Shown here piece by piece: positions 2,692-27,816 of a stretch of 64,000 nt of DNA; within the stretch, counting starts at the first letter, position 1, and each line of letters starts with the position of its first letter. The stretch covers positions 1 to 64,000 of the forward strand of contig JACRKC010000010.1 in the NCBI GenBank assembly GCA_016235555.1. The letters run 5' to 3'. A program made the position numbers and the translations under genes. A model generated the notes under the pieces. That model saw only the letters and a list, made by a program, of their open reading frames with translations. It was not told where the DNA came from and ran no database searches. The DNA is from Verrucomicrobiota bacterium (GTDB taxonomy: Bacteria; Verrucomicrobiota; Verrucomicrobiia; Opitutales; Opitutaceae).

Positions 2692-4317
2692 ATGAACTGC
2701 GGGACCACGCGGTTGGAGCAGTCTTATCCCGCACGAACGATCGCGCCGGCGAATCTGTGGGCGGTTTCGATTTGCCGGAGGGTGCCACCCCGCTACCTTG
2801 CGCGGGTGGTCGGCTGGCTCGCTGATTTTTTCCGCCTCGCGTGGGGGCTGCTCTACTGGAATGCGCGCAAAACGCTTTTCCAGCTCGGTCGCGGGCGGAC
2901 GCGCTGCCCGTGCCAGAGTCCGAGCGATTCGGGCCGCGCTCTCGCCACCACGTGCGACGCCTGCCTGCACTGGGCGAAGCCGGCGCGTTTCAAACGGGTC
3001 TGCCCGCTCCTGGTCGAGACGCCCGACGGCCTGCGCTGTTCGGTCGATACGGCCGACGTGCGCCCCTTCTGGGGTCTGACCGGCCGCTATTACGGCGGCA
3101 CGCTCGCCGCCCTCTACGTCGCCGGCGTGCTCGCCGTTTTCGGTTTCCTGCGGATCGTCGGCTATCCGATCAGCATCGTGCATGTGGCGTGGCCGGGCTT
3201 GTGGCACCGCGTGCCGCAGGCCCGTGGTTGGTTCTTCGTGGAACGCGCCAACCGCGCTTTCGCCGCGGGCCGGACCGCCGAAGGCCTGCTGTTTTTGATC
3301 AACGCGTTCGAGTTCGACCCCGGCAATTACGCGGTCGGCCTCACGATCGCGCGCCACTATCAACTGCTGCAACCGAACACCTCCGATCGCTTCTACGAAC
3401 GCCTGCTCAACACGTTCCCGGCCCAGCGGGACGCCACCGCGCAGGACTGGTATCGCGCGCTGCTGGCCCGCGGCGACTTCGTCCAGGCGGCACGGCTGAG
3501 CCGCACCCAGGTCATCGCCGACGCGGCCCGGGCCGGCGTCTGGATGCGCGCGCTGCTGTTCACGACGCGCCAGATCGGCGACGATGCCCTGCTTGACGAA
3601 CTGCTCGCCGACAGTGCGCCCGAGGCCCGGCCCTGGCGCCAGCTGCTCGCGGTCGAAAAACTGCTCCGGACCGGGCGCACGGCCGAGGCCCGCACGGCGC
3701 TGGGGCGGCCGTGGCCGGGGCAGGCGCCGCCCTACACGTTTTACTATCAGGCCGGGGCGCTCGCCGGGTTGGGCGACACCTTTGCCGCGCTCGATGTGCT
3801 CGGCCGGGCCGAGGCGAGCCTCGGCCAGACCGCGCGCTACACCTTGCAGCTCGACATCCTCGCCGCGGCCGAGGCCCGCGGCGTGCTGTTGCGCGACGTC
3901 GAAAAACTGCTCGGCCAGCCGTTGCGCGGCACCGACTTTCTCCCGACGATCACGCTCCTGTGCGCCCATCTCGTGCGCCACCCCGACGCGGAGATTCTTG
4001 CGAAGCTCACGCTCCGCCTCCGCCACGAGCGCATGGATTTCAACAACGACACCGCCGGCGTGTGGTTCTCCCTGGTGTGCGCCGCTGGCGCGGTCGGCGA
4101 TCAGGATCGGATGCACACCGTCGTGCTCCAGTTGAAGGAGGCGTCGAAATCCTCCTTCGCCGCGCTCGACACGGTCGAAGCCTTCTTCCGCGGCGACGGC
4201 GGTGCGCGCCGGGCCACCAGTTTCCTGCCCGTTCTGCCCCTGCCCCTCGAAGTCGCCTATGCGATGATCGAGCGTTATCCCGGCGCGCCACTGGCGACGC
4301 CGGCGTCGAAGCCATGA
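2692..4317 (+). CDS. TPR-like membrane protein of the exosortase operon
   Basis: The product is up to 541 residues. It has an N-terminal cytoplasmic part with a cysteine-rich stretch (C-P-C-Q, then C-D-A-C about 20 residues on, then C-P and C-S) that could bind metal. One or two hydrophobic segments follow near residues 120-165, and then a long helical region of TPR-like repeats. It ends with ATGA overlap on the exosortase gene, so the two are translationally coupled. The architecture resembles the protein at 18238-20151, which is linked to a PEP-CTERM gene. A scaffold role in sorting or export is inferred. The start is doubtful: GTG 2806, just before V-V-G-W-L-A-D-F-F, is a plausible alternative. 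Confidence 0.65.
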   Translation: MNCGTTRLEQSYPARTIAPANLWAVSICRRVPPRYLARVVGWLADFFRLAWGLLYWNARKTLFQLGRGRTRCPCQSPSDSGRALATTCDACLHWAKPARFKRVCPLLVETPDGLRCSVDTADVRPFWGLTGRYYGGTLAALYVAGVLAVFGFLRIVGYPISIVHVAWPGLWHRVPQARGWFFVERANRAFAAGRTAEGLLFLINAFEFDPGNYAVGLTIARHYQLLQPNTSDRFYERLLNTFPAQRDATAQDWYRALLARGDFVQAARLSRTQVIADAARAGVWMRALLFTTRQIGDDALLDELLADSAPEARPWRQLLAVEKLLRTGRTAEARTALGRPWPGQAPPYTFYYQAGALAGLGDTFAALDVLGRAEASLGQTARYTLQLDILAAAEARGVLLRDVEKLLGQPLRGTDFLPTITLLCAHLVRHPDAEILAKLTLRLRHERMDFNNDTAGVWFSLVCAAGAVGDQDRMHTVVLQLKEASKSSFAALDTVEAFFRGDGGARRATSFLPVLPLPLEVAYAMIERYPGAPLATPASKP

Positions 4318-5942
4318 CGACGGCGGCTTCCCTCCCTCCGCACGGCTCGCTGGCCGTGGCCTGGCACCGCTTGCCCTGGATCGGCCGCATCGCCTTCGCC
4401 GGCCTCGGGCTCGCCATGATCGCGTTGAGCTTCCGCCTGTGGCCCGAGTGGCGGCACAATCCCGATCTCTCCCACGGGTTCTTCATACCCGTGGTCTTCC
4501 TCATTTTGCTGCATGAGGCGCGGGGCGGGACTGCGCGCTGGCTCGGTCGCGGACCGCTGTTCCACGGGCTGCTCGCCGCCCTGCTGACCGGCGCGTTGCT
4601 CGCGCTCGTCGCCGCCGGCCTCTACGCCGCGTCGGTCGATTGGTCCCACGCGCTCGTCAACCTTTCGCTGACGTTGTCCTTCGTCTTGTTCCTGGGCGCG
4701 GGGCTGGTGCTGTCCGCCGGCGAAGCCACCCGATTGCTGCCGCTCAACTGGACCGCGCTCGTCGCGCCCACGCTCTGGCTGGCCTGCACTCCGATTCCAC
4801 CGGGCACTTATTCGCGGCTGACGCTCAGCCTCCAGCTCTTCGTCAGCGAAAACACCGTGGGCGTCCTCCACGTGCTCGGCGTCGCCGCGGTGCGCCACGG
4901 CAATATCATCGAACTGGCCCGCGCGACCGTGGGCGTCGAGGAAGCCTGCAGCGGGGTGCGGAGTCTGCTCTCCTGCCTGTTCGCCGGACTGTTTTTCTCG
5001 GCGACGTTGGTGCGCCGCCCGTGGGCCCGCGCCCTCATCGTCGGGTTGTCCGCGCCCCTCGCGCTCGCAATGAATTTTCTCCGCTCGCTGTCGCTCACGT
5101 TGCTGGCCAACGCCGGCGTCGACATCGCGGGCCCGTGGCACGATGCGACCGGTTTCGCCGTGCTCGGCGTCACCGCCGCCCTGCTTGGTGGGCTGGCCCT
5201 CCTGCTCGAACACCGCGAGCGTCCCGCGGCGGCACCGCAGCCTTCGTCCGCTCCCGCCGCGCCGGGCGATCGACCGCGCACCATGCCGTTTGCCGCCCTC
5301 GTCGGCGCGCTCGCAGTGGCGGCGGCGTTGACCGCGTTCTTCTTCGCCAACACGCGGCCCGCCACTCGCGGCGATCGGCCCATCCCCGACCTCCTCGCGG
5401 TCCTGCCGGCCCGCGCCCCCGGCTGGACCGTCGACACCGACACCGACCTGTATCAGTTTCGATCCACGCTCCGCACCGAATTTTTGGCGCAGCGCACTTA
5501 TACGCGCCAACGACCCACCGGACTCGAGCAGGTCACCCTTTATCTCGCCTACTGGCGGCCGGGACAGGCGCCGGTCAGCCTGGTCGCCTCCCACACGCCG
5601 GACGCCTGCTGGCCCGGCTCCGGTTGGACGATGGTGGCAGCGCCCCCCCCGCCATCGCCACTCGTGATCGGCGGCCGCACCCTCGCCCCGCCGGAGCACC
5701 GCCTCTTCCGCTCCAGCTTTTCGCAGCATGTCTGGTTCTGGCACCTGTATGGCGGCCGCCCCATCACCTATCGCGACCCGTATTCCGCCGTCGAGTTGCT
5801 GCGCATCGCCTGGCGCTACGGCTTCCGCAAAGACGGCGAACAACTCTTCGTGCGCGTTTCCAGCAACCGCCCCCTCGAGTCGCTCGCGCCAGAGCCGCTG
5901 TTCATCGAACTTTTCGCGCAACTGGGAAAACTGGGACTCTAA
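4314..5942 (+). CDS. Exosortase with fused C-terminal EpsI domain
   Basis: The product is 542 residues. The N-terminal ~300 residues form a multi-pass membrane domain with the exosortase triad: Cys212 in E-E-A-C-S-G-V-R, Arg257 in N-F-L-R-S, and His276 in W-H-D-A-T-G-F. After a linker and a further membrane segment (about residues 324-344), the C-terminal ~190 residues are an EpsI-type domain with the motif S-H-T-P-D-A-C-W-P-G-S-G-W. Exosortases cleave and process proteins with a C-terminal PEP-CTERM tail at the inner membrane. Two candidate substrates lie at 20170-21934. The gene overlaps the TPR gene by ATGA and is followed by a 30-codon membrane peptide and a sigma/anti-sigma pair. Confidence 0.9.
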   Translation: MTTAASLPPHGSLAVAWHRLPWIGRIAFAGLGLAMIALSFRLWPEWRHNPDLSHGFFIPVVFLILLHEARGGTARWLGRGPLFHGLLAALLTGALLALVAAGLYAASVDWSHALVNLSLTLSFVLFLGAGLVLSAGEATRLLPLNWTALVAPTLWLACTPIPPGTYSRLTLSLQLFVSENTVGVLHVLGVAAVRHGNIIELARATVGVEEACSGVRSLLSCLFAGLFFSATLVRRPWARALIVGLSAPLALAMNFLRSLSLTLLANAGVDIAGPWHDATGFAVLGVTAALLGGLALLLEHRERPAAAPQPSSAPAAPGDRPRTMPFAALVGALAVAAALTAFFFANTRPATRGDRPIPDLLAVLPARAPGWTVDTDTDLYQFRSTLRTEFLAQRTYTRQRPTGLEQVTLYLAYWRPGQAPVSLVASHTPDACWPGSGWTMVAAPPPPSPLVIGGRTLAPPEHRLFRSSFSQHVWFWHLYGGRPITYRDPYSAVELLRIAWRYGFRKDGEQLFVRVSSNRPLESLAPEPLFIELFAQLGKLGL

Positions 5943-20169: not shown

Positions 20170-21126
20170 TCAAGCGTGGACATTTCCGGCCGGCGTGGCG
20201 GCGGGTGTCGGCCGGCGGCGGCGCCAAATCACATAGCCGAGCGAACCGAGGCCCATGATGGCCGCATACGTGGAAGGCTCGGGAATGGCGCTCGGCGTGA
20301 AGGCCAGGTATTGCGGGCCGCTGATCCCACTGGCGAAGGTGGTGAAGCTCCCGCCGGCGAGCGCGACCTCGGCGATCGCGTTGGCGCCTTGTTGGGCGAC
20401 GAAGAGGGCGCCCGTGACGGGATTGAACGCGAGGCCCACCGGGGAGCTCAAACCGCTCACAAAGGTCGTGACCGTGCCACCCGTCGTCACCTTCGACACC
20501 GTGCCGGCGGAAAAATTCGAGACGTAGAGATTGCCGGCGCTGTCGAACTTCAGGTCGTTGGGCTGGCTGAAACCGGAGGCGAAGACCGTGGAGGTGCCGT
20601 CGGACATGTTCACCTGGGAAACCGTGCCGTTGTCGCGATTGGCGACGAAGAGCACGCCGCTGCTGTTGACCGCCACGCCGAAGGGACTGTTCAAACCCGT
20701 GGCAAACGTCGTGGCCGTCGTGCCACCGGCGGCTACCTTGAGGATTCCCACCGGGCTGCTGTAGCTGGCGATGAAGAGGTCACCGCCGGTGTTGAAAGCG
20801 AGGCCGAGCGGAAGCTGCAGGCCCGTGATCGAGTTGCTGACCACACCGCCCGGGACGGTCACCTGGGAAACCAAGCTCGTATTCGTGCCGGAAAGATCCT
20901 GCGCAACATAGAGGTTGCCGTTGGTGCCGAACGCGAGCCCTTTGGGCGCGGTCAGGCCGCTGGCCAAGGTGCTGACGGTGCCACCGGAGGTGATTTGTTG
21001 AATCGTGCCGCCGCTGTTGGTCGTGACGTAGAGCGTCTGCGCGCGGACCACGTCGCAACAGGCCACGACGGCTGGCATCAGGGCCGCGACCCGCCGGATT
21101 GATGAGATGAACGAGGAATGCTGCAT
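20170..21126 (-). CDS. PEP-CTERM protein with NHL/beta-propeller repeats
   Basis: The product is 318 residues: a signal peptide, then six or so NHL-type repeats of about 40 residues (G-L-A-F-x-x-x-G-N-L-Y-V-A is the recurring strand), then the sorting tail I-P-E-P-S-T-Y-A-A-I-M-G-L-G, a hydrophobic helix and W-R-R-R-R. The tail is the exosortase recognition signal, and an exosortase is encoded at 4314-5942. The mature protein should be a six-bladed propeller on the outer surface. The gene leads an operon with the TPR membrane protein. Confidence 0.9.
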   Translation of the reverse strand: MQHSSFISSIRRVAALMPAVVACCDVVRAQTLYVTTNSGGTIQQITSGGTVSTLASGLTAPKGLAFGTNGNLYVAQDLSGTNTSLVSQVTVPGGVVSNSITGLQLPLGLAFNTGGDLFIASYSSPVGILKVAAGGTTATTFATGLNSPFGVAVNSSGVLFVANRDNGTVSQVNMSDGTSTVFASGFSQPNDLKFDSAGNLYVSNFSAGTVSKVTTGGTVTTFVSGLSSPVGLAFNPVTGALFVAQQGANAIAEVALAGGSFTTFASGISGPQYLAFTPSAIPEPSTYAAIMGLGSLGYVIWRRRRPTPAATPAGNVHA

Positions 21127-21211: not shown

Positions 21212-21934
21212 TCAGCCCACGGCGCGCGTGACCGGTGAGGGACTGCGCTGGCGCCGCCAGACGACGAAGCCGAGCGCGCCCAGTCCCATGATGGCCGCGT
21301 AGGTGGAGGGCTCGGGGATGGCGGAAGCTTGAATGGACATCATGGCCCCGCCGCCGGCCGAGTTCCACGTGTTACCGCCCAGACCATAATATCCTGCGTC
21401 GCCAATCGTCCAGCCGGCGAGGCCGCCGCTATCTTCGTTGAGCGTGCCGGACGTGCGGTAAGTGTAGTAGTTGCCGGACGTGCTCGCGGACGGAGCTGAG
21501 AGAAGCAGGTAATACGACGTCGAGGCGGCCAGCGTGGCGGAACCGGAGAACACCGCGCTGTTGACGGAGGTGAGGTTGCCCGAGGTGAGGCTCAGATTCG
21601 CGACCAAGCCCGTCGGGCTGCTGGTATTCGACGAGTCGAATGCCGAGTAGAGGCCGACGGCCAGACTGCCGGGCGAACCGGTGGTCCCGGTAAACGCGAG
21701 GGTAAAACTGGTGAATTCGTAGCCGCCGACACTCGCGCCGGTGGTGAACGAAAAGACGCGGCGCTCCGTCGCTCCGTTGAAAGCGAAACCGATATTCGCC
21801 GTGCCGCCGCTCCCCTGGCCGAAGTTGGAGACGGCCGTCTGGGCGTCGAGCTGGCCGGTGCTGGCAACGGCCAGCGCCGCGAAAAGCAAGGCCGTGGCCC
21901 TGCGGGTGAAACGGGCGGCAACAAGGGTATTCAT
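21212..21934 (-). CDS. PEP-CTERM protein with choice-of-anchor-like domain
   Basis: The product is 240 residues from the ATG at 21934. After a signal peptide ending L-D-A-Q comes a Ser/Thr/Gly-rich beta domain like the choice-of-anchor R group (S-N-F-G-Q-G-S-G-G near the start and F-S-F-T-T-G). The tail has I-P-E-P-S-T-Y-A-A-I-M-G-L-G-A-L, a hydrophobic helix and W-R-R-Q-R, nearly identical to the neighbouring PEP-CTERM protein. A pair of direct repeats 100-134 bases upstream (22034-22068) is shared with the FecR-domain gene and may be the operator for a LytTR regulator. Confidence 0.88.
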   Translation of the reverse strand: MNTLVAARFTRRATALLFAALAVASTGQLDAQTAVSNFGQGSGGTANIGFAFNGATERRVFSFTTGASVGGYEFTSFTLAFTGTTGSPGSLAVGLYSAFDSSNTSSPTGLVANLSLTSGNLTSVNSAVFSGSATLAASTSYYLLLSAPSASTSGNYYTYRTSGTLNEDSGGLAGWTIGDAGYYGLGGNTWNSAGGGAMMSIQASAIPEPSTYAAIMGLGALGFVVWRRQRSPSPVTRAVG

Positions 21935-22033
21935 GGCGATCAATTTATTTTTCAGGTGGATGAGGCTTTGGACGGGAAGTCCTCCCGCCCGCGACCACCA
22001 TCCCCGGCTGCGCGGGCGCGTCGAACCAGCAGG

Positions 22034-22068
22034 GGCGAAGCGCGGAGCGCATGTGGCGAATCGCGGAG
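22034..22068 (-). promoter_or_regulatory. Candidate LytTR operator upstream of a PEP-CTERM gene
   Basis: Read on the minus strand there are two 14-base direct repeats, CTCCGCGATTCGCC (22055-22068) and CTCCGCGCTTCGCC (22034-22047), with a start-to-start distance of 21 bp. The same arrangement stands before the FecR-domain gene at 24051-24085. LytTR regulators such as AgrA typically bind two direct repeats about two helical turns apart, and two LytTR regulator genes lie in this block. Binding itself is an inference. Confidence 0.55.
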
Positions 22069-22113
22069 TGGCCGGTTCCGCGCGCCCGACCCCGGGCGAC
22101 ACTCGCGCCTCGG

Positions 22114-22797
22114 CTACGGGCCGAAGCGCGCGCGCAGGGTGCGCCACCAGCGGCGAACGCGAGACGACGCCGGCGCGCCAGCGAGAAACATTCGCGTGGG
22201 CTCCTGGTCGCGCGCGTAGCGAATCGTTCGCGCGAGCCGGACCGCGTGAGCGCGCAGGACGTGCGCCGGGGCCAGCGAATTCTCCCACGCCTCGAGACAA
22301 TGCCGGAGAAAAACACGCTCGTCATCCGTGAGCGCGACTTCGTCGAGGCTCTCCGGCGTGGCGCGAGCTGGCACCGCCGCCACGGGAGTTCGAACCGCCT
22401 CGGTCGAATCGCCCCCGACCCGATCATGGCGGGTCGCGCCGGCGGCGTGGGCCCGGGCGGCGCGCCGCAGCGCTTCGGCCAGGCGCGCGGAGTCGATCGG
22501 CTTGATCAGGTAGTCGATCGCATTGCTCTCGAAAGCGCGCGCCGCGTAGCGGTCGTAGGCCGTGGCGAACACCACGCTCGCGCCCGCCCGCACGCCGGGC
22601 AGCAGGAGGAAGGATTCGCCGCCGATGAGCTGCACATCGAGAAACACGACGTCGTAGTCCGCGCTGGCGAGGAGCGCGCGGGCGGCGCGAAGCGTGGCGG
22701 CCTCGCCGACGACGGTCACGCCGGTGTGGGCCGCGAGCTTGGCGCGCAGGTCGGTGCGCGCAGCGGCTTCGTCGTCGATGAGGAGGGCGCGCAACAC
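22114..22797 (-). CDS. Response regulator with a degenerate, shortened LytTR domain
   Basis: The product is 227 residues. The receiver domain (1-115) is intact, with I-D-D-E at the start and the phospho-acceptor in V-V-F-L-D-V-Q-L. The output domain aligns with the LytTR domain of the regulator at 24219-24968 only from V-A-L-T-D-D-E-R-V-F-L-R onward. About 30 residues of the first LytTR strands are missing, and the DNA-contact region H-R-T-Q-I-V-N of the paralogue reads H-A-V-R-L-A-R here. It may bind DNA weakly, act by dimerising with the paralogue, or be decaying. No kinase gene is directly beside it. Confidence 0.8.
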   Translation of the reverse strand: MLRALLIDDEAAARTDLRAKLAAHTGVTVVGEAATLRAARALLASADYDVVFLDVQLIGGESFLLLPGVRAGASVVFATAYDRYAARAFESNAIDYLIKPIDSARLAEALRRAARAHAAGATRHDRVGGDSTEAVRTPVAAVPARATPESLDEVALTDDERVFLRHCLEAWENSLAPAHVLRAHAVRLARTIRYARDQEPTRMFLAGAPASSRVRRWWRTLRARFGP

Positions 22798-22855
22798 AAG
22801 GCGGCGGGAGTGAAGCCACGCGCGCGAGTGCGCCGCAGCCGGTGTTTGGCGGCGC

Positions 22856-23971
22856 TCAGCTTGAGCGGCTCACGACCACGGTGATGGCAGGATCGACCGG
22901 CGTCACGGGGGTGCCCTTTTCGTTCTGGCTGGCATGCACGCCGCCCGTCACCTGCCCGGGTTTGATCGTGACGCCTTGGACGTTGTTGGCGGCGGCGACC
23001 AGTGTCTGCACCACGGCGTTCACCAGCGTGCCCGGAATGGAGTCGGCGACGGCGTTGACCGCTGACGACACGATGAGCGCGGCCGCCCCGCCATTGCCGG
23101 CGGCGGTCGCGGAGGTGACGGCCGCAGTGGTGATCGTGGAAGCGAGCGAGGTGGTGCCACCGGAACCGGCGGCGGCCACCAACGTGGCGTTGGTCACGGC
23201 GGCGCCGGTGGCGGCGGCCGTGACGCTGGCGACGGTAGTCGAAGCCGTGGCACTCGTGCCCGCGGCCGTGGCGATCGTGTTGATCAGGGCGGTGACTTGC
23301 GCGGTGTTCGTGGCGACGGTGGCGACGGCGGCGGCGGCGGCGGTCAACGCCTCGGTGAGTCCGGCGCTGCCTCCCGCGGTCATCGCGGCCCCGAGCGTGC
23401 CGCTGGTGGTCACGCCGTTGTTGTTGGTCGTGACGGCGTTCGCGGTGTTGCCCGTGATGTTCACCGACTGGCCGCCCCAGTTCACCGTCACGGTGCCGCT
23501 CAAGACGGCCACCAGATAGACGTTCCCATTCACCGTGACCGTGAGGTCGGTGCCCCGCGCCAGCGCGAGGCCCTTGGCGGTGCGCACTCCGTAATTGTTT
23601 TCGCTTTTCCGGGACGGATCGAGGGACGACGCGAGGCTGCCCGACTTCAAACTCAAGATGGCGTTGCGCGTGCCGTTGGCGCCGACGCTGAGTTTCTCGA
23701 GTCCGACTTCCGTGTTGCCCGCGAGGACGGCGACGATGCCGTCGTGAACCAGCAGCGATACCTGGGCGCCTTTACCCGTGGTGATCGCAGCGCCTTGGGC
23801 GACCTTCAGGCCGACGGTGGCCGGCGCGGAGGAGCCATCGGCGAACCGGATCGTCGCCGAGCCGCTCGTCGCGGCGACCGTGGCCTGCGTCAGGGATTCC
23901 TGGGCGTGAGCGGCATCGAAGAGGGAGACCATCAGAACGGCCTGGGCAGCGAGGAGAAATCGTTTTTTCAT
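22856..23971 (-). CDS. Secreted FecR-domain protein with Ala/Thr-rich tail
   Basis: The product is 371 residues. After a signal peptide ending A-H-A-Q comes a FecR domain at about residues 30-175 (V-G-L-K-V-A-Q-G-A-A-I-T-T-G, G-T-D-L-T-V-T-V, V-L-S-G-T-V). The region from about 195 to 345 is low in complexity and made mainly of Ala, Thr, Val and Ser, as in surface stalks. The protein has no sigma factor partner, so it is a secreted FecR-like protein and not an anti-sigma transducer. Its upstream region shares the 21-bp-spaced direct repeats with the neighbouring PEP-CTERM gene. Confidence 0.8.
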   Translation of the reverse strand: MKKRFLLAAQAVLMVSLFDAAHAQESLTQATVAATSGSATIRFADGSSAPATVGLKVAQGAAITTGKGAQVSLLVHDGIVAVLAGNTEVGLEKLSVGANGTRNAILSLKSGSLASSLDPSRKSENNYGVRTAKGLALARGTDLTVTVNGNVYLVAVLSGTVTVNWGGQSVNITGNTANAVTTNNNGVTTSGTLGAAMTAGGSAGLTEALTAAAAAVATVATNTAQVTALINTIATAAGTSATASTTVASVTAAATGAAVTNATLVAAAGSGGTTSLASTITTAAVTSATAAGNGGAAALIVSSAVNAVADSIPGTLVNAVVQTLVAAANNVQGVTIKPGQVTGGVHASQNEKGTPVTPVDPAITVVVSRSS

Positions 23972-24050
23972 GGTGATCGAAACGCGGATTCGGTTACTAC
24001 AACTCGCGGACGAATGAGCGCCGCACGCTCGCGCCCGTCGATTTCATAGG

Positions 24051-24085
24051 GGCAGGCCGCGGAGCGGCTGTGGCCAATCGCGGAA
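24051..24085 (-). promoter_or_regulatory. Candidate LytTR operator upstream of the FecR-domain gene
   Basis: On the minus strand the repeats are TTCCGCGATTGGCC (24072-24085) and CTCCGCGGCCTGCC (24051-24064), again 21 bp from start to start. They lie 80-114 bases before the FecR-domain start codon. The block around them (AGGGGC to CGCGCG, about 55 bp) aligns with the block before the PEP-CTERM gene, whereas the sequences nearer the start codons do not. That argues for a conserved binding site over a recent duplication of the whole region. Confidence 0.55.
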
Positions 24086-24218: not shown

Positions 24219-24968
24219 CTACGGCGTGCGTCGCAGCACCGCCAGCCGGTCGCGCAAGTCGCTCCACTTGTCCCGGCTCGCGGGCACGGGCTCCACCGCG
24301 CCGGCGACATAGAGCAGCGTGTGCTCGTCGGCGTCGCGCTGGTAGCGCGTCACATGCGTCAGATTCACGATTTGCGTGCGATGCACGCGCATGAAATGGG
24401 TGGCGGGCAAGGTGTCCGCCCACGCCTTGAGGCTCTTGCGGAGGAAAATCTTTGCGCCGTCGGCGAGCCGCACTTCCGAATAATTGTCGCGGGCCGCGAT
24501 GTGGCTGATCGCCGCCACCGGCGCGAAGCGCGCCCCCAAGCCGGAGCGCAGGAAGACGGTGTCGTCCAGCCGCAGCGCGGCGCCGGGCGCGTCCTCGGCC
24601 GTCGCTCCCTCGTCGGCAGGCGTGGTCGCGAGGCGCCGGAGCGCCTCGGCGAGCCGCGCCGGCGCCACGGGTTTGAGGAGATAGTCGAGCGCATTGACCT
24701 CGAACGCACGCAGCGCAAACGCGTCGTGGGCTGTGACGAAGATGACGCGCGCGCCGGCCCGCACGTCGGGCACCAAGTCGAAGGCGCTGCCCCCGATGAG
24801 CTGGATATCCAGGAACACGAGATCGTAATCCGCGCGCGCCAGCAGGGCGCGCGCGCGGTGCATGGTCGCCGCCTCGCCGACAATCGCGACCTGCGGATGC
24901 ACCGCGAGTTTGGCGCGCAAATCGGCGCGCGCGGGGATTTCATCTTCGATGAGCAGGGCCTGCGGCAT
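24219..24968 (-). CDS. LytTR-family response regulator
   Basis: The product is 249 residues. The receiver domain starts M-P-Q-A-L-L-I-E-D-E with the phospho-acceptor in L-V-F-L-D-I-Q-L and the conserved lysine in Y-L-L-K-P. A full LytTR domain follows at about 145-249, with I-S-H-I-A-A-R-D-N-Y-S-E-V, F-L-R-K-S-L-K-A-W and F-M-R-V-H-R-T-Q-I-V-N-L. It starts 70 bases after the stop of the histidine kinase gene and is its likely partner. The two 21-bp-spaced repeats nearby are candidate targets. Confidence 0.92.
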   Translation of the reverse strand: MPQALLIEDEIPARADLRAKLAVHPQVAIVGEAATMHRARALLARADYDLVFLDIQLIGGSAFDLVPDVRAGARVIFVTAHDAFALRAFEVNALDYLLKPVAPARLAEALRRLATTPADEGATAEDAPGAALRLDDTVFLRSGLGARFAPVAAISHIAARDNYSEVRLADGAKIFLRKSLKAWADTLPATHFMRVHRTQIVNLTHVTRYQRDADEHTLLYVAGAVEPVPASRDKWSDLRDRLAVLRRTP

Positions 24969-25038: not shown

Positions 25039-27816
25039 TCACCTGTCGCCCATCCCCCGTCTCCCGTCCCTCGTCTCCTCCCGGTGCGCTGTGAGGCGCA
25101 ATGTCACGGTCACCCAGCCGCTGGCGTGCGCAATCTCCATCCGATGCGCCCGCGGGTAGTGGCGCGCGAGCCGCTCGCGCAGGTTGTCGAGGCCGATGCC
25201 GAAGGAGGAGACGGTTTTCGGTGCCGCCGGCTCGACCCACTCGCCGGTGTTGGCCACCTCGAGCACGACCGCGCCGTCGCCGTCCCGACGCGCCGCCAGC
25301 CGGAGCCCGACGCGATCGGGACTCGTCGCACGGCCGTATTTGAGCGCGTTCTCCACGAGCGGCAGCAGCAGGAAATGCGGGACCCGCTCCCCGTCGAGCG
25401 TGGGGTGGCAGGCGAGATCGACGTCGAGGAGGTCGCCCCAACGGGATTGCTCGATCTCGAGATAGGCGCGCAACAGCCGCAGTTCCTCGCCAAGCGTCGT
25501 CCAATCTTCCTCGCCGGCGCGGTGGAGCGTGAGGCGGCAGAACTCGGCCAGCCGCTCGACCATCGAACGCGCGGCGGAGCCGCCGGCGGGCAGCGATGCG
25601 CTGATCGAGGCGAGGGTGTTGAACAGAAAATGCGGGTTGAGTTGGTAGCGCAGCACTTCGAGCCGCGCCTTCTCCTCGCCGAGCCGGGCGGAGATTTTCT
25701 CGTCGAGCTCGAGCTGGTGCAGGCGGACCAGCTCCACGTTGCGTTGCGCAAGCTCGGCGGTGCGCAGGGCCACGGTTTGTTCGAGTTGGGCCGCCTTGTC
25801 GCGCAGCGCCCGCGTGCGCCAGCGCACCACCCCCGCGATGGCGCCCGCGCCGGCGGCGGCGTATCCGAGCAGCATCCACCACGTAAGCCACCACGGCGGG
25901 AGAACCGAGAACGCCAGAACGGCCGGTGCGCCGAGCTGGCCGTCGAGGTCGCGCGCACGGGCCTCGAAACGATAGCGGGCGGAGGGAAGATTGGCAAACG
26001 TGCGTTCGTTCTTGGCGGACCATTCCGACCAATCGGGATCGAAGCCCACGAGGCGCGACTGGTAGGTGACGGCCCGGCGGAGCTGGTGGCGGTGACCGAC
26101 GTAGCTGAACTTGAGCTCGCCGTGTTTCGGGGCGAGCCGGTCGCCCGACTTCACGCCGGTCGCGGCGAGTTGCGTGGCGAACGGGATCGGCACCGGGAAC
26201 GCGCGGTCAATCTCGAGGCGGAGGAGGCCGTCGCTGGCGCCAATCCAGAGCACGGGGCCATCGCCGTCGCGGCCCGGCTCCTCCCACAGCTTCGCGACGG
26301 CCGCGCCGGCGAGTTCGTTGGTCAATCGCGGGAGTTTTCGCGGCGGGCTCCCGTCACGCGGCACCTGCCAGATGCCGGCCGCGTCGGCCCGCCACGCGAC
26401 GGCCTCGACGGGGGCCACATCGGACGCCGGCGCGCTGCCCGCAGGCTCTTCGCGCCATCCCTCGGCCGTGCGCCGGATCGACCGGGACTCACCGGCGCCG
26501 ACGATCCACACGCGCGCCGGATCGGATTTTGAGCGCAGCAAGCGTCCCCCACCGGCCGACCCGGCGGCGATCGGCACGAAGCCGGCGGCCGTGTGGAGAT
26601 ACACGCGGTCGTAGCCGGCGGCCAGCAATCCGTCGGAATGCGACAGCACACCGTAAGCCGGCCGGCTGAAGATGCGCCGGAACGACGCTCCTCGTCCCGT
26701 CTCGTCGTTGGGCGGGACCATCCGATACACGCCCTCGGCGGTCGCGACCCACATCACGCCTTCGTGGCGGGTGAAATCCGCCACCGCGCCCGAGCCGAGG
26801 CCGTTGATCACGTTGAAAATCGAGATCGCGGACGGCCATTCCACGCGGCAGGCGCCAGACTCGGTGCCGAGCCATAGTCCGCCTTCGTGGTCCTGGGAAA
26901 AATCGCGCACCGTGGCGACCGAGAGGCCGATCGACTGGTCGATCGGTCCGACGTAGCGGCCGGCGGAGTCGAAGCGCATCCCACCGTCGCCGCTCGGAGC
27001 GTCAAACGCCACCGCCAGTTCGCCGCCGGTCAGGCGCAGGGCGCGCCAGACGGTTTTCCCCGCGAGCCGGCGGTTCGCCTCGGCCGCGAGGGGCGCCACG
27101 GGCCCGGCGGTGAGCTGAAAAAAACCGCGGCGCGCGGTGAGCCACACGAGTTCACCGGACCGCCCGCGCTCGAGCAGCACGATTTGGTTTTCGCGAAAAA
27201 TCGGATCGTCCGCCACCGGCTCGATCCGCTCCCGCACCACCCGGCCGAGGCCGTGGCCTGGCGCCGTGACGAAGGCGGTGTCGCCGACGCCATGCAACCG
27301 CGCGCCGCGCGAACGCGCCGGCGTGCGATACGGAATCGCCACGAAACGACCACCGCGCCAGATCAGGATCTTCTCCTCATCGGCGAAGTAAACGGCGTCG
27401 CCCACCGCGAGCACGTCATGGAGTTCGGCTGCCCCGAGTTCGCTCGGCGGCAACCGATCGGCGAGGGAAACAAAGACTGCCTCCGGCCCCCACCCGCGCA
27501 AAAATCCGATCACGCCGGCGCCCGCGACGTAAATCGTCCCATCGGGGGCGCGGGCGAATCTCCGGACGCCGGCCGACTCCGTCGGGAGCTTGATCAACTG
27601 CCAGGCCCCCACTCCGTCATAATAGCGCACGCCCCCCGGTCCGCCGAGATAGACGCAGCCGGCCGGATCCCGCGTCACCGCAATCGAGAAAAAATCGATC
27701 CTCGCCTGGCCCGGCGGATTGAATTGCACCAACGGGTGCCCGCGCTCGCCAGGCGAGGCGCCACTCGGTGCGACGAGCGTCGCGAGGAGGAATGCAACGA
27801 GGACCGGGCGTGGCAT
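25039..27816 (-). CDS. Propeller-sensor histidine kinase of the LytS/YehU type
   Basis: The product is 925 residues. A signal peptide is followed by a large periplasmic sensor of two-component-regulator propeller blades (about 30-560; e.g. L-W-L-G-T-E-S-G and M-W-V-A-T-A-E-G-V-Y). A Y_Y_Y domain (about 570-635) with F-A-N-L-P-S-A-R-Y-R-F-E, one membrane helix (about 640-663) and a coiled coil follow. The kinase has the phospho-acceptor in L-N-P-H-F-L-F-N-T near 718, the N-box L-V-E-N-A-L-K-Y-G and the G-box G-I-G-L-D-N-L-R-E-R-L. In related bacteria such sensors often respond to glycan breakdown products. It is the first gene of the kinase-regulator pair. Confidence 0.92.
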   Translation of the reverse strand: MPRPVLVAFLLATLVAPSGASPGERGHPLVQFNPPGQARIDFFSIAVTRDPAGCVYLGGPGGVRYYDGVGAWQLIKLPTESAGVRRFARAPDGTIYVAGAGVIGFLRGWGPEAVFVSLADRLPPSELGAAELHDVLAVGDAVYFADEEKILIWRGGRFVAIPYRTPARSRGARLHGVGDTAFVTAPGHGLGRVVRERIEPVADDPIFRENQIVLLERGRSGELVWLTARRGFFQLTAGPVAPLAAEANRRLAGKTVWRALRLTGGELAVAFDAPSGDGGMRFDSAGRYVGPIDQSIGLSVATVRDFSQDHEGGLWLGTESGACRVEWPSAISIFNVINGLGSGAVADFTRHEGVMWVATAEGVYRMVPPNDETGRGASFRRIFSRPAYGVLSHSDGLLAAGYDRVYLHTAAGFVPIAAGSAGGGRLLRSKSDPARVWIVGAGESRSIRRTAEGWREEPAGSAPASDVAPVEAVAWRADAAGIWQVPRDGSPPRKLPRLTNELAGAAVAKLWEEPGRDGDGPVLWIGASDGLLRLEIDRAFPVPIPFATQLAATGVKSGDRLAPKHGELKFSYVGHRHQLRRAVTYQSRLVGFDPDWSEWSAKNERTFANLPSARYRFEARARDLDGQLGAPAVLAFSVLPPWWLTWWMLLGYAAAGAGAIAGVVRWRTRALRDKAAQLEQTVALRTAELAQRNVELVRLHQLELDEKISARLGEEKARLEVLRYQLNPHFLFNTLASISASLPAGGSAARSMVERLAEFCRLTLHRAGEEDWTTLGEELRLLRAYLEIEQSRWGDLLDVDLACHPTLDGERVPHFLLLPLVENALKYGRATSPDRVGLRLAARRDGDGAVVLEVANTGEWVEPAAPKTVSSFGIGLDNLRERLARHYPRAHRMEIAHASGWVTVTLRLTAHREETRDGRRGMGDR

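Follow-up and report, generated by a model that had tools for sequence, protein, structure and literature searches.

In the 64,000-nucleotide stretch of Opitutaceae DNA analysed here (the window), genes for a FecR-domain protein and a PEP-CTERM protein, whose products are predicted to be at the surface, are each preceded by a pair of direct repeats. They lie next to a LytTR response regulator (RR1) and its degenerate paralogue (RR2). This raises the question of whether the repeats are operators, which regulator would bind them, and with what effect on the two genes. From sequence comparison, both pairs are very probably promoter-proximal operators of RR1, which when phosphorylated would switch on the FecR and PEP-CTERM units.

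Two repeat pairs in the window

On the minus strand the locus runs in the order histidine kinase, RR1, operator 1, FecR gene, RR2, operator 2, PEP-CTERM gene and NHL-repeat PEP-CTERM gene (Table 1). The last two genes are possibly co-transcribed as one unit. RR1 passes the PF00072 and PF04397 cut-offs and carries the FhRhHRS-like motif as FMRVHRT; a sequence search against the PDB gave 27 matches, with the best stretches in the receiver part.

Table 1. Features of the proposed regulatory locus, in window coordinates.
Feature	Position	Strand	Basis
Histidine kinase (Reg_prop, Y_Y_Y and PF06580 kinase domains); putative partner of RR1	25039..27816	-	Pfam
RR1, response regulator with receiver and LytTR domain; thought likely to bind operators 1 and 2	24219..24968	-	Pfam PF00072 + PF04397
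Operator 1, 5' of FecR gene; 9-bp half-sites 24072-24080 and 24051-24059	24051..24084	-	Weight matrix 40.3
TCGACG hexamer resembling a -35, beginning 10 nt past operator 1	24036..24041	-	
Exported FecR-domain protein; putative target of operator 1	22856..23971	-	Pfam + sequence
RR2, receiver and degenerate LytTR part; proposed feedback component	22114..22797	-	
Operator 2, 5' of PEP-CTERM gene; 9-bp half-sites 22055-22063 and 22034-22042	22034..22067	-	Weight matrix 49.1
TCGACG hexamer resembling a -35, beginning 10 nt past operator 2	22019..22024	-	
PEP-CTERM protein; putative target of operator 2	21212..21934	-	
NHL-repeat PEP-CTERM protein; next gene, same strand as the preceding PEP-CTERM gene	20170..21126	-	Pfam

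Read on the minus strand, operator 1 is TCCGCGATTGGCCACAGCCGCTCCGCGGCCTGCC and operator 2 is TCCGCGATTCGCCACATGCGCTCCGCGCTTCGCC, with a repeat period of 21 bp in both. Operator 1 ends 79 nt before the ATG of the FecR gene and operator 2 ends 99 nt before that of the PEP-CTERM gene. A repeat search places them in a surrounding 58-nt block (22010-22067 and 24027-24084) with 72% identity (42/58). The initial annotation had reported 21-bp-spaced repeat pairs before these two genes, and its coordinates, spacing and start-codon distances are right. Its repeat consensus holds overall, but the TT of that consensus is missing from CTCCGCGGCCTGCC, the second of the two repeats before the FecR gene.

A rendering of this first motif has nine matches in the 8.03-Mb genome, and the two operators are the only ones with 0-1 mismatch; the remaining seven carry 2-3 mismatches, and the reversed control has 13 matches at ≤3. 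A separate search of the same genome for weaker sites (≤3 mismatches) gave seven matches against four in the reversed control, and no distant regulon member is claimed. The weight matrix described below finds no further site above 9.2 bits in the window, and so none before the kinase gene.

An exosortase-like stretch is found at 4446-5186 on the plus strand of the window, inside the open reading frame (ORF) 3711-5942; it scores 81 bits with TIGR02602, below the cut-off of 105.55. A second such stretch (G000:C41:41678-42376) is also under this cut-off, with 97.5 bits.

Distribution of the motif in Opitutaceae

As a family-wide probe, the rendering of the first motif at ≤2 mismatches was rejected (20 matches in 95 genomes, 21 for the reversed control). 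Two of its best matches in these 95 relatives adjoin RR1 orthologues. A site at ≤3 mismatches is found at 4/4 loci where RR1 is 66-75% identical, and at 0/13 loci with more distant regulators. A refined consensus, CCGCGATTCGCCACANNNGCNCCGCGATTCGCC, was derived from these four loci and adds a CCACA segment. At ≤3 mismatches it finds 14 sites, spread over 11 of the 252 Opitutaceae genomes scanned, and ten of these sites, in seven genomes, played no part in deriving it. The scatter over random positions that would speak against an operator is not seen, the reversed control of the refined motif having no match in the 252 genomes.

An RR1 orthologue at ≥61% identity is present in 16 of the 252 genomes, from 12 genera, and these include all 11 genomes with refined-consensus sites (hypergeometric probability 8e-16, phylogeny ignored). 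The predicted association of the motif with LytTR regulators is borne out by co-occurrence with RR1. The site is downstream of RR1 on the same strand in 13/16 RR1 genomes (after RR2 in G021). In G126 and G127 it is on the other strand, 1-1.5 kb from RR1, and G137 has an RR1 orthologue (82%) with no adjacent operator, its sites being found on other contigs only. Genome G023 has a second kinase homologue (L086, 13946-16000), 62% identical to the kinase of the window, near the RR1-linked one.

Layout of the sites and a -35-like element

The collected set consists of 23 sites from 17 genomes and 12 genera; two weak sites before RR2 orthologues (L084:6299 and L196:3251) were left out of it. A weight matrix was built from 17 sites, which score 40-53, while the top unrelated score in 0.66 Mb of loci is 12.3. 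Weaker sites at linked loci are those of G126 (37.5), G254 (34.6), G102 (a second site, 33.4) and G175 (24.3), and the weak ones of G116 (17.0) and G176 (11.9), the last being within background by score and accepted on position alone.

All 23 sites have a 9-12-9 layout of two direct repeats 12 bp apart, with the 9-bp half-site consensus CGATTCGCC. This agrees with operators of the LytTR family, in which imperfect direct repeats of 8-13 bp are separated by about 12 bp. Mean pairwise identity is 0.79 and 0.78 in the two repeats; taken together with the intervening ACA and GC, which are conserved as well, the range is 0.78-0.85. The 3-nt spacer has a value of only 0.39 and the outer flanks of 0.29-0.32, against 0.71 for the -35-like hexamer.

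Counting from the end of the operator, 23/23 sites carry T at +10 and G at +12 (≤6/23 at all other offsets between 1 and 50), as do both weak sites left out of the set, making 25/25. At this position 17/23 sites have TSGAC, which resembles a -35 element. Agreement with TTGACA averages 3.83 of 6 at +10 and does not exceed 1.78 elsewhere in the same range of offsets. This spacing of about 10 bp to the -35-like element is that of LytTR-family operators, and is seen in 23/23 sites as well as in 15/19 GTC-class boxes of paralogous regulators (see below). A -10 element is weakly visible (2.26 versus 1.79 in shuffles).

Genes behind the sites

The first gene after the site is of the PEP-CTERM type in 18/23 cases, FecR in 2/23 and TPS-type in 3/23, in line with the expectation that the motif precedes FecR-domain or PEP-CTERM genes. 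The 18 PEP-CTERM-type genes comprise 15 over the Pfam cut-off, two just below it (L229 and L232) and one recognised by its C-terminal motif only (L228). The TPS match of L201 is below cut-off and in a short ORF. Start codons are 75-106 nt from 17 sites (18 if the second ATG is used at L196:1300), and at 50-64 and 154 nt for the other five; the target ORF of L204 starts at +79.

Locus L196 (G103:C93, 1300-3284) packs three operators into 2 kb: two are strong and each precedes a PEP-CTERM gene, whereas the one in front of RR2 is weak. In L197 (7648-9177), a 509-aa ORF has a PEP-CTERM motif in the middle of the protein (residues 212-236) and a second PEP-CTERM-like tail at its end.

Paralogous regulators and their boxes

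Opitutaceae regulators that are 48-57% identical to RR1 often have tandem boxes of their own directly behind the gene, with a similar 9-12-9 layout, an AlgR-like core that is typically YTSGTCAC, and a period of 20 or 21. Regulators were scored for such boxes if their tblastn match had E≤1e-20 and extended to residue 225, if their C-terminus did not duplicate another, and if ≥100 bp of downstream sequence was present. This gave 85 regulators, comprising 63 paralogues, 18 of the RR1 group and 4 RR2. The scorer is blind to base 4 and tuned to the paralogues, with the 99th percentile of shuffles as the score limit. A box pair above this limit was found for 20/63 paralogues (0.6 expected), 10/18 of the RR1 group and 1/4 RR2, and no clear box was found by the same scorer for 43/63 paralogues. 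It missed 8/18 RR1-group regulators, including that of the window, which is just under the threshold and in the wrong register. TNG is present at the same +10 offset in 15/19 GTC-class boxes (≤3/19 at all other offsets between 1 and 25). Genes after the boxes in L240, L094, L111 and L099 have PEP-CTERM-like ends, identified by pattern and not by profile.

By our alignment of the FhRhHRS motif, RR1 residue 198 corresponds to AgrA S202, which is reported to touch DNA (PMC4227749). C at base 4 of both half-sites accompanies 10/12 regulators with Q198, versus 2/18 others (Fisher 1e-4); among paralogues alone the figures are 10/12 versus 1/8 (Fisher 0.005). At residue 161, regulators with D have CC at base 8 in 9/9 cases and those with E have TT in 18/19, one RR2 row aside; the D group is a single clade. 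Because the sequences are related, this covariation of residues 198 and 161 with the half-site is confounded and may be taken as a set of leads only.

A GTC-class box pattern run over the 252 genomes matched 33 of them, but its reversed control matched too; being contaminated by heptamer arrays, it was not used. Such tandem arrays of TCACTCG/TCACTGG mimic LytTR boxes (21 = 3 x 7) in L268 (G004), L256 (G147), L248 (G030) and others. With a first scorer, 24% of loci from many phyla were above the 95th percentile. Outside Opitutaceae only one locus, from Verrucomicrobiales (L155), is convincing by eye.

A model for the locus and its alternatives

The initial annotation had proposed that the repeats are the operator of RR1. 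This is supported by the co-occurrence of sites and regulator, by the kind of target genes, by the empty reversed control, and by the boxes of the paralogues, with their same spacing and TNG offset. In the proposed mechanism, the kinase, of a propeller/LytS type, would sense a signal and phosphorylate RR1. An RR1 dimer would then bind the two half-sites, 12 bp apart and 9 nt upstream of the TSGAC -35-like element. Bound RR1 would activate both the PEP-CTERM unit and the FecR unit, the latter including RR2. Domain content and operator position suggest the steps that lead from the signal to activation.

Operator position alone is an indirect guide to activation versus repression, and RR1 might instead bind and repress, or hold the genes off until it is phosphorylated. 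This appears rather unlikely, as all 23 operators stop 9 nt upstream of the -35-like element and do not overlap the promoter, a geometry that is described for activated LytTR promoters (PMC6193735, PMC4227749).

The RR1 and RR2 paralogues share a 300-nt, 72% repeat with a copy of the block after each, so the block could be a functionless relic of duplication of a regulator gene with its downstream flank. Such an origin is highly improbable for sites that are found in 17 genomes, several without RR2 at the loci examined, and before unrelated genes, and whose repeats, unlike their spacer and flanks, are conserved. In addition, the sites of G126, G127, G137 and contig C245 of G155 are not behind a regulator gene.

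There is equally little to be said for operators of another regulator, such as an NtrC-like PrsR acting with sigma-54, although PMC1569441 describes such a site for proteobacterial PEP-CTERM genes. The sites co-occur with RR1, and base 11 is C in 15/25 aligned sites, which breaks the GG of a -24 element. The window's own genome, the sole genome searched, has no PrsR (TIGR02915) over cut-off, the best score being 407.8 versus 502.6. Least probable of all is that the repeats belong to a terminator, or to a structure in the transcript, downstream of the regulator gene, as might be suggested by the 13/16 genomes with the site behind RR1, since the repeats are direct and not inverted, the sites of G126 and G127 face the other way, and those of G137 and contig C245 of G155 precede target genes with no RR1 in front.

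RR2, a degenerate paralogue

The suggestion that the degenerate paralogue also binds the operators is not upheld: RR2 has no Pfam LytTR match at E≤0.001, and the HR[ST]..N DNA-contact segment is absent in 5/5 RR2 sequences from five genomes. RR2 retains the receiver residues D8, E9, D53, T78 and K98, which are invariant in ten aligned sequences. In comparison with L084, dN/dS is 0.18/0.77 for RR2 and 0.16/0.78 for RR1; thus, RR2 is maintained by purifying selection. An AlphaFold2 model of RR2 has a mean pLDDT of 69.5, with about 54-68 in the C-terminal part. In both the window and G155, RR2 comes after operator-controlled genes and shares their strand. Elsewhere, it has a weak operator before it in G021 and G103, and is 1.3 kb behind a target gene in G137. 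A role in feedback is a guess from these arrangements.

A broader proposal for Opitutaceae is put forward tentatively. Local pairs of propeller kinase and LytTR regulator, with variant 9-12-9 operators, may run PEP-CTERM and autotransporter-like exports, instead of the PrsK/PrsR of Proteobacteria, with residue 198 partly setting the half-site. In the branch of the window a receiver-only RR2, made from an operator-controlled unit, might damp the circuit, serving either as a sink for phosphate or as a partner unable to bind.

Comparison with known systems

Proteobacterial PEP-CTERM genes have a conserved sigma-54 upstream site and predicted control by PrsK/PrsR, according to PMC1569441 and PMC9850573. 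As there (PMC1569441), a two-component system and a conserved upstream site are predicted here for PEP-CTERM genes. However, PrsK/PrsR is NtrC-like and acts with sigma-54, whereas the locus of the window has a LytTR regulator and a sigma-70-like -35 element. Table 1 of PMC1569441 gives 65 PEP-CTERM genes and no PrsK/PrsR for Verrucomicrobium spinosum. This 2006 paper, which defined PEP-CTERM proteins, states that further regulators and DNA motifs were still to be found. The present locus gives a candidate regulator, operator and promoter geometry for PEP-CTERM genes in Opitutaceae, and the paralogous regulators with their variant boxes are a natural test of half-site choice by LytTR domains. 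No paper tying LytTR to PEP-CTERM, or Opitutaceae to LytTR, was found in a literature search outside which most subscription papers lie. The LytTR direct-repeat operator is of a known kind; as far as searched, its link to PEP-CTERM genes is unreported.

In most described LytTR operons a 12-bp gap separates the repeats, which tend to lie 10 bp upstream of the -35 element (PMC6193735). With the operators bound by AgrA, or belonging to LytTR Regulatory Systems (HdrRM is an example; PMC4227749, PMC6193735), the sites here share 9-bp direct repeats with 12 bp between, a position about 10 bp upstream of -35 and a LytTR regulator gene nearby. The half-site here is GC-rich, unlike those of AgrA and LytTR Regulatory Systems. 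The latter are autoregulated and pair the regulator with a membrane inhibitor. At the window locus neither an autoregulated operon nor an inhibitor partner is found: no site precedes the kinase gene, and the regulator is a two-component response regulator beside a PF06580 kinase.

A similar half-site is the AlgR box of Pseudomonas aeruginosa, CCGTTCGTC (PMC4064291). It matches CGATTCGCC at 6/9 positions in our alignment and is identical to the paralogous box CCGTTCGTC of L240. AlgR boxes need not be direct repeats 12 bp apart, whereas the 23 sites here are.
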